Shown here piece by piece: positions 2,565 through 64,000 of a DNA stretch of 64,000 nucleotides. This DNA is from Tetradesmus obliquus (Eukaryota > Chlorophyta > Chlorophyceae > Sphaeropleales > Scenedesmaceae). Every line of letters begins with the position of its first letter. Position 1 is the stretch's first letter. The notes beneath the pieces were generated by a model. That model had not been told where the DNA came from. It was given only the letters and a program-made list of their open reading frames with translations, and did not search any database. The position numbers and the translations under genes are program-made. The DNA is taken from positions 2,542,001 through 2,606,000 of the forward strand of contig CP126207.1 of the NCBI GenBank assembly GCA_030272155.1, read 5' to 3'.

Positions 2565-3011
2565 CAACTGCCCTGCACTGCAATGCAGTACATTGGCCCA
2601 AGGGTCGGACCCTGGAACAGCAGAAACATTCTGATTGTATCAAAAACAAAACATTACTACTCACATCAGAGGCTACACAGAACAACCTATTCCATGCATG
2701 TAGCAGGCCTGTTACATACACAATGCGGCTCCTGAGTTGTCCCCACCTATCTTGATGGATGTGATTTCAAACATGTGTGTCAAGAAGCCAACAGCAAGAC
2801 CAGTTTTGTTTTAACCAGGCGTCCAAGATGCCTGCTGGATGACGGCATTGCAGCTTACACCCTGCCTGCTGATACTTTACTGTGGCAGATCATTGCAAAC
2901 TACTACATTCCTGCACAGCCTACATCTGGGGTGCATGGTTGGTGCATAAGTCCGATCAGCCTCAGTGCAGGCAGGGTTTTTATTTGTGGCTTTCACAGCC
3001 TGACAAGGGTG

Positions 3012-3310
3012 TACTGCTCCCATGCCCCCAAGGCATCGGCCAGACCATGTTGCACACCCACCATTCCCCGCCATCTGCATAATACTTGCCACGCAGCTCG
3101 GTGCAAAGTGCTATCAAAACTGTTCAAAACAAAAACCAGTGCAGCTCACACCAAACCAGGCTGATGCTTACAGGCTCTCCACAGTATACTGCTCGCATGC
3201 TCCAACTCCGTCCCTGTCGCACACCATCCTGTCTCCATCATCTGCACAATCCTTGCCGTTCCGACCCTCACGCAGCGCAATGCCACATGCGTTCAAAGCA
3301 TTGCAGCCCA
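3012..3310 (-). repeat. Two decayed copies of the last fascin-like unit beyond the stop
   Basis: On the minus strand, 3310-3180 still reads as a trefoil lobe (IALREGRNGKDCADDGDRMVCDR). A more decayed copy lies at about 3110-3012 (LRGKYYADGGEWWVCN). Both lie downstream of the TGA at 3399-3401, so they are duplicated coding ends now in the 3' UTR or flank. Minus-strand TGTAA motifs at 3168-3172, 2853-2857 and 2711-2715 are possible poly(A) signals. Confidence 0.65.
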
Positions 3311-62400: not shown

Positions 62401-64000
62401 GAACTCCAGCTCATCAGGCTTCCTGCAAGATGCGAAACAGATAACATGTCATGTGACAAGTCGCAACAATTGCACATGTGGAGCCCCAGTGCCTGGACCA
62501 TGGCCAGCAGTCGGGGTGCACGGAACTCCAGCTCATCAGGCTTCCTGCAAATTCAAAAAAGGAAATGTTGTAACACAAATTGAAAAACAAGTGTCATGTC
62601 ATGTGACAAGTACAAAAACTGAGAAATATGCAGGGTTGCCAGGACAGTGCAGGAGAGTCATATTATACTGCATACATGCATATTATACTGCTAGCAACAT
62701 ACAGCGACATATTAAAATGTACTGCACGCCGATGCAGCGCATCCAAAATCTGATGAATTTTCAAAGAGACTGCCGTCAAAACCTTGGGCCACCGCACCTG
62801 CAGGCCCAGACGATGAGAGCAGGCAGGCCCGCTGCTGCTGCGCCTGTGGCTGCCAGCCAGCAACAAGCCTTCAAACCCCAAACCCAGTAATGGCAGGCCC
62901 GCTGCTGCTGCGCCTGTGGCTGCCAGCCAGCAACAAGCCTTCAAACCCCAAACACAGTAATGGCAGGCACGCTGCTGCTGCGCCTGTGGCTGCCAGCCAG
63001 CAACAAGCCTTCAAACCCCAAACACAGTAATGGCAGGCCCGCTGCTGCTGCGCCTGTGGCTGCCAGCCAGCAACAAGCCTTCAAACCCCCAAACAAAGTA
63101 ATGGCATTTGACACCAGTCATGAAACAAGAAGCGCACCTGCAGGCCCAGACGATGAGCGCAGGCAGGCCCGCTGCTGCTGCGCCAGCTGCCAGCCAATAA
63201 AAAGCTTTCAGACCCCACGACAAAGGCATAGTATTTCAACCTATTTTCAACAGAAGGCGCACCTGCAGGCCCAGATGATGAGAGCAGGCAAGCCAGCTGC
63301 TGCTGCGCCCGCCGCTGCCATCTCCTGGAACACTGAAAAGGCAGCAGTGATGCCCACACCGCCTGCGGCACGACATAACACAAGTGACATAGCAATGTGT
63401 TATGGTTGGTGTCAGTGTGTTACAAGAACAGTCGTGCTGCCATCTCCTGGAAGACAGAGAATGCAGCAGTGATGCCCACACCGCCTGCAGCACGAGATAA
63501 CAAAAATGACAAAGCAACGTGTTACAAATTACTTCAGTATGTTACAAATCAGCAGTGCTGCCATCTCCTAGAAGGCAGCAGTGATGCCCACACCGCCTGC
63601 GACATCACATAAATAACATGCCACATGAAAGGTACAACATGCTTCAGGCATGACATAAGGCATCTCGTCAGTGCTACCAATGCTTGACAAACCATCCCTG
63701 GCATGCAGCATCCCCAACACATCAACCACTCATAGTCGTGATATTCACCCTACGTTGCTGGTGCTGCTGGTGGTGCTGCTTGTCCTTCAACAATCCCACA
63801 ACCAATCACTCACCCGCAGCAATGATCACTCCATTGACACCGCTGCTGCTGCCATGCGTGTCCTTGCTGCTGCTGCTGCTGCTGCCGCACACCGCCGCTG
63901 CCTTTGTCACTTCCGGGTGGCTCAGCACTGGCCCAGGAAGTTCAGCGTAGGGTCCCTCCATCTTCACGGTGAAGTTCACACCAGCCCCACAGTTCACACC
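59467..64000 (-). CDS. Ferric-chelate reductase (FRO/FRE family), C-terminal half, 5' end outside window
   Basis: Exons visible: 63814 to beyond 64000, 63263-63362, 62331-62422, 61559-61819, 59467-60245, with matching phases. The window begins inside the FAD domain: VNFTVKMEGPYAELPG, then a Ser/Ala linker and IIAAGGVGIT, the NAD(P)-binding glycine motif. ALIIWACRKPDELEFLAPRL and TTLKLYCTG follow, as in the NAD-binding domain. Two later hydrophobic stretches (VVGLGSFFCQAGHKALLHMI; VTVITAAILLPGTLALWGAL) match the extra C-terminal membrane spans of plant-type FROs. The end is FEVFGMGPTALVASVQLL ... VNFVQKTHEL. These enzymes pass electrons from NAD(P)H through FAD and heme to extracellular Fe(III) for iron uptake. 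The heme-binding membrane domain is outside the window. An NADPH-oxidase-like relative is less likely given the extra spans. Confidence 0.75.
60290..61470 (-). repeat. Echoes of ferric reductase exons 61559-61819 and 59467-60245
   Basis: Donor-side copies of exon 61559-61819 (PVVGLGSFFCQAGHKALLHA plus IAFAG|GTGC) lie at about 61465-61393, 61300-61228, 61060-60977, 60893-60812 and 60653-60583. A trace lies near 60470-60435. One acceptor-side copy of the last exon (TLGGTLFVRYYSAVPPDEP) lies at about 60375-60310. The spacers are A/C-rich with ACAAACACCAAA-like text, unlike the rest of the window. Confidence 0.85.
62193..62545 (-). repeat. Echoes on both sides of ferric reductase exon 62331-62422
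   Basis: An acceptor-side copy at about 62545-62485 (KPDELEFRAPRLLAMVQALG) and a donor-side copy at about 62263-62193 (LLAMARALRLSTTLKLYCTG) flank the parent (KPDELEFLAPRLLAMARALG). Confidence 0.85.
62797..63180 (-). repeat. 70-bp tandem array and donor-side echoes of ferric reductase exon 63263-63362
   Basis: Four units of exactly 70 bp start near 62821, 62891, 62961 and 63031 and share AGGCCCGCTGCTGCTGCGCC and CAGCCAGCAACAAGCCTTCA. Each carries the GCGCAGCAGCAGC segment of the exon. Donor-side echoes with ALIVWACR|GTGCG lie at 63180-63138 and 62850-62797, so the array arose inside an echo. Acceptor-side copies of the same exon (GGVGITAAFSVFQEMAA) lie upstream at about 63485-63427 and 63603-63558. 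Confidence 0.8.

Follow-up and report, generated by a model that had tools for sequence, protein, structure and literature searches.

Internal gene duplications, including ones that take in intron-exon boundaries, were reportedly described by Gao and Lynch in 2009 as one way in which the structure of genes changes. Related arrangements are known from other systems: intron gain by AGGT tandem duplication involves short tandem duplications that carry splice signals (PMC3443670; potato RdRp, PMC4974935), mutually exclusive exons comprise several tandem exon copies (PMC9013439, PMC9741552), introners shape many introns genome-wide by one process (PMC9860276), and in helq-1 mutants of Caenorhabditis elegans end joining of abrogated recombination intermediates gives tandem duplications that range from ~100 bp to 10 kb (PMC8654963). 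Here we analyzed 64,000 nt of contig CP126207.1 of the green alga Tetradesmus obliquus (assembly of 104.7 Mb in 17 contigs), hereafter the window, in which introns hold partial copies ("echoes") of the exons next to them, mostly running across a splice junction. Internal and tandem exon duplication is known in kind. Neither the excess of silent differences nor, in the hand-modelled genes, the tie of the repeats to exons is trivial. In the open-licence literature, outside of which most subscription papers fall, we found no description of junction echoes at such density, and nothing found there contradicts the statement in a preliminary description of this DNA that no account at this scale was known to its author.

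The echoes are confirmed and occur widely in the genome, and in one respect the finding is sharper than the preliminary description had it. Our reading, held tentatively and with somewhat less than even credence, is that introns grow by tandem duplication across splice junctions, that the copies were most likely already diverged when they were juxtaposed, and that neutral decay came later.

Splice-Junction Echoes and Their Polarity

Nine genes with 51 exons were modelled, six by eye (43 exons) and three further ones partially. In the six hand models the frame is open across all GT-AG junctions, one GC donor among these, which apparently ends exon 1 of the glutathione S-transferase (GST) gene at 20942/20943 (GAG/GCAAGC), and all six match back to Pfam (SSF, GST, Ras, Sec62, TPR, and ferric-reductase NAD-binding). 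The modelled DUR3 agrees with a T. obliquus UniRef protein (99% identity, 662 aa), the T. obliquus OEZ85 proteins agree with the SEC62 and FLU models (99 and 95% identity), and a Logan contig protein (P0027) runs through DUR3 exons 1-10 and then into intron 10 in 100% agreement with the model. Simple repeats were masked, and every exon plus its flanking sequence was compared with the intron on either side (E ≤ 1e-4). Alignments with fewer than 15 exonic bases or an offset below 25 were dropped before counting and overlapping echoes were collapsed, which makes the number of distinct echoes too low for arrays. The echo census, the indel and stop counts and the likelihood models cover all nine genes; the silent-fraction count and the anchoring test cover the six.

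The census returned 98 alignments, equal to 82 distinct echoes, adjoining 34 of the 51 modelled exons, in line with the roughly 100 copies counted by eye in the preliminary description. The polarity reported there is complete: acceptor-spanning alignments lie upstream of the parent exon in 26 cases and downstream in 0, and donor-spanning alignments lie downstream in 39 and upstream in 0, the parent being defined as whichever copy joins the open exon without a break, so that parent choice and polarity are not fully independent. Every one of the 13 echoes that extend beyond the 3' end of a last modelled exon is downstream; the stop-codon end of last exons is also copied, and such copies likewise sit downstream. 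The junction-free echoes are all on the matching side (14 of 14; 5' part when upstream, 3' part when downstream), and the remaining 2 copy an acceptor and sit above the first exon modelled in their gene. In the six hand-modelled genes, between 17 and 54% of intron length is taken up by echo alignments. Splice dinucleotides are mostly kept (AG in 24 of 25 distinct echoes, GT in 28 of 30) and exonic indels are few; the copies had been called decayed, and they prove to be real copies to which decay is a poor fit. In the whole window, at E ≤ 1e-3, there are 162 direct and 3 inverted repeat pairs, with 132 direct pairs less than 500 bp apart, whereas a single Markov shuffle, made for each of 26 stretches, left 0 repeat pairs.

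Geometry accounts for the polarity, which follows from tandem duplication of a unit that crosses a junction and needs no special rule. If intron end plus exon start is duplicated, only the downstream copy joins the rest of the exon, so acceptor echoes lie upstream; if exon end plus intron start is duplicated, only the upstream copy does so, and donor echoes lie downstream. Since any protein-sparing tandem duplication must look like this, polarity is no evidence for a special process. Arrangement and polarity do support the earlier proposal that a junction-spanning unit was repeatedly duplicated in tandem while one reading path was kept.

The examples singled out earlier are as claimed. In the SEC62 gene (25850..30098, minus strand; six exons modelled), exon 28855-28756 has four upstream acceptor echoes within 28934..29409 and five downstream echoes within 28182..28685. 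The FLU-like TPR gene (52731..56736, minus strand; five exons modelled) carries three upstream echoes (55808..56244) and one downstream echo (55388..55504) of exon 55734-55557, the farthest upstream of which (56244-56141) has 13 silent and 0 replacement differences, as well as five downstream echo units (53686..54664) of exon 3 (55060-54770). Exon 9 of the DUR3 urea transporter gene (40704..47943, plus strand; 16 exons), the parent of the echoes at 42-47 kb, has one upstream echo (44252..44328; 8 silent, 1 replacement) and three downstream echoes within 44651..45138 (from 44651, 44836-44939, and 45029-45138), the last with 9 silent and 0 replacement differences from its parent.

More than half of the introns in the nine genes (22 of 42) end in (CTG)n, counted as three CTG units within 44 nt of the acceptor. 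As candidate fragile sites these tracts were rejected: upstream echoes accompany 8 of 22 introns with a tract and 13 of 20 without one (Fisher P 0.12). Separately, long (GCA)n/(CTG)n microsatellites, pure or nearly so, occur at 52815-52945, 6348-6598, and 53417-53500, some directly before acceptors.

Association of Repeats With Exons

Across the six hand-modelled genes (~19 kb of intron), 88 repeat pairs were found, comprising 64 exon-intron, 22 echo-echo and 1 exon-exon pairs and a single pair unrelated to an exon; put differently, of the 23 intron-intron pairs, 22 match echo to echo. Junction-spanning pairs number 56, against 35.1 expected from 300 rigid circular shifts (sd 4.9, maximum 49). 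This tie to exons is notable because random neutral tandem duplication should leave many intron repeats that are unrelated to exons.

Echoes Beyond the Window

Twenty stretches of 10 kb, chosen by position and blind to content, hold 209 direct and 18 inverted repeat pairs, some stretches having none at all; the phenomenon is thus not local to the window. Pairs less than 1.5 kb apart cover 11.8% of bases in this random set and 28% in the window (137 direct, 2 inverted). Repeat spacing peaks at 100-160 bp.

Genes of the random set were predicted ab initio with a gene finder that, at its best settings, recovered 38 of 43 training exons among 53 predictions in gene spans; the random stretches were run with somewhat different settings. 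At least one echo was found in 15 of 29 predicted multi-exon genes. Five echo-bearing predictions that were scanned are conserved genes, namely those for a selenocysteine elongation factor, whose echoes look mis-modelled, amidophosphoribosyltransferase, the complex I 49-kDa subunit, a protein kinase and a Pol theta-like helicase. Polarity in the random set is imperfect (acceptor echoes 44 upstream and 7 downstream, donor echoes 25 downstream and 12 upstream) because the gene finder takes echoes as exons. With two echo-exons removed, the complex I 49-kDa gene shows 5:0 for acceptors and 8:0 for donors, and the PPAT gene shows 3:0 and 2:0 after exon removal; one removal in the latter broke the frame, which voids its silent and replacement counts. 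The echoes of prediction L018 (17 replacement, 7 silent, 5 stops) look like mis-modelled exons. The Pol theta-like helicase gene (L021, G000:C9:2100001-2110000, minus strand) is the most echo-rich random prediction, with 25 echoes, and several of its predicted exons copy neighbours; it belongs to the family that has been linked with tandem duplication in worms.

Mis-assembly is a classical hazard where tandem copies resemble each other, so an artefact of assembly or haplotype collapse has to be considered. We regard it as very improbable. The preliminary description argued against it from the differing divergence of the copies, and here there is independent support. SEC62 exon 26050-25850 has three downstream echoes (25268..25768, minus strand), and the first of these stands together with the parent exon and the intron in one stretch of Logan contig P0252. 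A FLU echo unit lies within a T. obliquus UniRef protein (P0121), divergence among the echoes is graded, repeats are present on at least 13 of the 16 contigs sampled, the 104.7 Mb are assembled in as few as 17 contigs, and the window contains no N.

Silent Differences and the Origin of the Echoes

Among echoes with at least 5 codons (67 echoes of 28 exons), differences from the parent are silent in 353 cases and replacement in 169, a silent fraction of 0.676 as compared with 0.423 under a null of a constrained parent and a neutral echo (95% CI of the excess 0.196-0.300, bootstrap over the 28 exons). The ab initio models of the random set give 266 silent and 217 replacement differences (0.551 vs. 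0.434; CI of the excess 0.065-0.165). In 23 comparable alignments of the window, intronic parts diverge by 0.196, silent sites by 0.27 and replacement sites by 0.06. Silent divergence hardly tracks replacement divergence, being 0.294, 0.251 and 0.315 in echoes with 0, 1-2 and at least 3 replacement changes (n = 9, 33, and 36). A model-free measure, the codon periodicity of mismatches, is strong in the window (sum chi2 448, 166 df) and weak in the random stretches (312, 252). The first exon of the unnamed gene G9K, the frame of which is not established, was omitted from the selection, indel/stop and model-fit counts.

Likelihood models were fitted to 78 correlated echoes of at least 8 codons each, with parent omega set to 0.08. 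The best fit is neutral decay with a constant silent offset of 0.22 (logL -335.3), followed by constrained echoes (omega 0.31; -338.8), an exponential offset (-351.6) and plain neutral evolution (-417.9). The offset ranks above constraint because it is nearly constant, as between separate lineages and not within one mixing population.

These results bear most directly on the account first proposed, in which plain neutral tandem duplication within one chromosome was followed by decay while selection retained one path. Its duplication, its single retained path and its extension beyond the window stand, and the tandem arrangement, the polarity, the stops and frameshifts in some echoes, and the neutral-like indel and stop counts of the random set are all as it would have them. 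Plain decay does not stand: the silent fraction exceeds the null in both sets, the model lies ~80 logL units below the best, and only 5 of 81 copies are without silent change, where 14.9 would be expected under exponential ages and 1.8 under constant divergence. The near absence of exon-unrelated pairs in the hand-modelled genes also speaks against it, the random set being not clear on this point. Plain duplication is already disfavoured, and we consider it unlikely.

Under our preferred reading of prior divergence, tandem duplications would cross one splice junction and leave copies mostly ~100-260 bp apart. The mRNA would keep only that copy which adjoins the remainder of the exon; the other would turn intronic, with its polarity thereby fixed. 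For one of the two, the source would be the homologous exon in a haplotype or lineage that had diverged. Two routes may be envisaged. During abortive homologous repair a broken end could invade the homologous exon, which is what stays conserved when homologues diverge, with copying past the junction into the intron, release and end-joining to follow; alternatively, the parent allele could be exchanged by later recombination. After placement, the intronic copy would decay neutrally. Three elements of this reading are inferred: where the offset comes from, the route of repair, and that anchoring reflects a requirement for homology. Extensive heterozygosity is reported for a diploid strain of T. 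obliquus (Biondi 2024, as cited in PMC12633428), and T. obliquus assemblies differ by several residues in the DUR3, FLU and SEC62 proteins. Exon-internal echo ends show a C(A/T)G-rich motif in 24 of 54 cases, compared with 0.353 at random exon positions; the intronic unit starts are too diverged to place. An extension of this reading, possible although we regard it with some doubt, is that introns form an archive of exon pieces from diverged alleles, in which recombination between divergent homologues repeatedly deposits a foreign exon end beside the resident one, and in which stored variants with intact splice sites can return to the protein through splicing or when an array contracts.

A number of observations weigh against prior divergence followed by neutral decay. 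The exponential offset, which corresponds to a simple within-population coalescent, fits worse than constrained echoes. At exon 2 of FLU every copy is distant at silent sites, which would call for several donor lineages. In FLU, amino-acid-changing codons are rarer at invariant than at variable residues (14 of 175 vs. 21 of 144). Anchoring to exons is weak in the random set, with its imperfect ab initio models: 125 of 200 pairs (62.5%) involve an exon, against 54.6% by shifts, and 25 intron-only plus 17 echo-echo pairs make 42 of 200, against 18.8% intron-only by shifts (33 pairs are intergenic, against 26.7%). Pure-intron duplications lose similarity faster, and part of the 1 in 88 figure may be a detection effect. 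Finally, the exonic parts of window echoes hold 8 indels, where the rate seen in introns predicts ~48, and 3 stops, where 9.5 are expected. This shortage suggests continuing constraint, although intronic slippage may inflate the indel expectation, and that of indels is the strongest point against prior divergence with neutral decay and for continued use. The random set lacks it (34 indels vs. 37.8 expected, 9 stops vs. 8.3).

Continued use would mean that some transcripts splice echo units as cassette exons, with weak purifying selection on their coding and splice sites. The depletion of indels and stops in the window fits this, as do the retention of AG or GT in 52 of 55 distinct echoes, the nearly equal fit of constant constraint (-338.8 vs. 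-335.3) and the acceptance of echo units as exons by the gene finder in random genes. Furthermore, T. obliquus protein A0A383W2R7 (P0121) has a 47-aa in-frame insertion after FLU exon 3 that matches the downstream echo units and includes part of their intron-derived stretch, whereas A0A383W3H6 (P0122) is without it; an echo unit has thus at least been annotated as a cassette exon. Against use, the genome note on strain UTEX 393, the presumed source of both proteins, describes no annotation evidence (PMC5255914). Upstream echoes stop inside the exon copy, and by eye no in-frame rejoining donor was seen for FLU exon 2, DUR3 exon 7 or Rab7 exon 5. Four echoes of the stop-codon end of the 'FRE' gene, in which no splice site is involved, have 25 silent and 9 replacement differences (a fifth, internal echo has 7 and 9). 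Replacement changes do not clearly avoid invariant residues in DUR3, FLU and SEC62: amino-acid-changing codons number 12 of 127 at invariant and 5 of 70 at variable residues in DUR3, and 19 of 216 and 14 of 143 in SEC62 (two truncated homologues of DUR3 and four of SEC62 were excluded from this test). On balance, splicing of echoes seems doubtful to us, if possible.

A further alternative is exchange between parent and copy, by gene conversion or by array contraction and re-expansion, with replacement changes purged whenever an echo becomes the parent. Two matches with OEZ85 speak for it. At FLU exon 3 the OEZ85 parent reads CKETLRAGK, as does the window echo at 54447 (54447-54349), and the window parent reads CRDTLKAGK; at SEC62 exon 1 the OEZ85 parent reads TDSLRG, as does one window echo. 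However, the related SEC62 sequence P0242 has the similar TDTLRG, and an older echo would explain the SEC62 match. By an argument from drift theory, exchange frequent enough for selection would erase the ~0.29 silent divergence. Nor do replacement changes show a consistent gradient toward the junction: such a gradient, as a sign of array contraction, was tried and rejected, acceptor echoes being lower proximally than distally in both sets, window donor echoes flat and random donor echoes reversed. Contraction-driven selection as the sole cause was put aside by argument only. We judge exchange improbable as the general explanation.

Other Genes and Features of the Window

Further echoes of the genes named above are as follows. 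In DUR3, exon 4 has a downstream (donor) echo at 42227..42342 (23 codons, 2 silent and 4 replacement differences, GT kept), exon 7 an upstream (acceptor) echo at 43210..43264 (98% identity) and a downstream echo of its 3' part at 43486..43553, exon 10 a downstream echo at 45711..45762, exon 12 a downstream echo at 46479-46509 and exon 13 an upstream echo at 46555-46627, all on the plus strand. FLU exon 52812-52731 is followed by five downstream echoes at 52023..52591 (minus strand).

The 'FRE' gene, with a ferric-reductase NAD-binding domain (59467..64000, minus strand; five exons modelled), has downstream echoes of exon 61819-61559 at 60444..61468 (six alignments, of which five are longer copies and one is short), two upstream and five downstream alignments of exon 63362-63263 within 62793..63618, and the four stop-codon-end echoes plus the internal one (59038-58874) of its last exon within 58535..59379. 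The Rab7-like gene (13334..15508, minus strand; five exons modelled) carries echoes downstream of exon 3 (14637-14510, 14416-14376) and upstream of exon 5 (13724-13663, 13585-13521). On the plus strand, the GST gene (20733..24056; 6 exons) has eight echoes within 21506..24175 (21506-21577, 21979-22039, 22440-22497, 22819-22933, 23276-23490, 23499-23566, 23747-23850, and 24113-24175), the last being a copy of the stop-codon end.

The partially modelled genes are a plus-strand gene named by eye as RNA-binding-type (16140..17577, exons 1-3), with one upstream echo (16591-16631) and three downstream echoes (17006-17067, 17152-17210, 17305-17351), and two unnamed minus-strand genes, 'G9K' (7026..9867; three exons modelled, eight echoes) and 'BTF' (3172..4377; two exons modelled, three echoes). 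An intronless ORF of 821 aa lies at the start of the window (46-2511, plus strand). A 237-bp dispersed repeat occurs at 2305-2541 and 5229-5465 (95% identical), with a similar translation near 50578-50751, and possibly belongs to a family of mobile elements; outside the modelled genes, a minisatellite at 49202-49484 has ~11 copies of a 21-bp unit. Searching Rfam at gathering scores gave no match.

Implications and Comparison With Known Systems

The means by which introns lengthen are an open question, and in this alga the process is dense enough to be studied event by event. If exon-tied duplications with an allelic silent offset do supply much of the intron length of a species, then intron sequence records recombination between diverged lineages; were the allelic archive also true, gene structure would record past hybridisation in cis. 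The process also leaves numerous decoy splice sites, still intact, within genes, a matter of concern for annotation and for spliceosome choice. Published values are a mean intron of 462 bp in T. obliquus and of 230-302 bp in four other green algae, with long introns and 15.7% coding sequence in T. obliquus (PMC5966456). These intron lengths fit inflated introns.

With internal gene duplication the alga shares segments duplicated inside genes, in direct orientation and close by (162:3 direct to inverted in the window, 209:18 in the random set). It differs in that two thirds of the modelled exons have echoes, in that the repeats are tied to exons (in the hand models), and in that silent divergence is far above replacement divergence. 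In the AGGT type of intron gain (PMC3443670), an exon-internal unit creates a new intron, whereas the algal unit spans a junction that is already there and makes its intron longer. That type is excluded here because its copies would be placed the other way round, the end of the upstream exon being repeated where the intron ends and the start of the downstream exon where it begins: all 65 of the 65 junction-spanning alignments have the opposite placement.

Unlike mutually exclusive exons, the window echoes copy one exon end only and cannot replace the exon. Alignments that span both exon ends number 0 of 83 in the window, with none in the nine-gene census, and 10 of 105 in the random ab initio set, where they are partly echoes mistaken for exons. 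Introners also differ, since each echo is derived from the exon beside it; when the genome was probed with an exon of SEC62 (one probe only), this gave ten local matches and one 40-bp match elsewhere. HELQ-deficient worms share with the alga duplications from ~100 bp upward and offer a precedent for their origin in interrupted homologous repair, an origin that we only propose for the alga, whereas in the available part of that account (PMC8654963) the worm duplications are not described as tied to exons or as inter-allelic.

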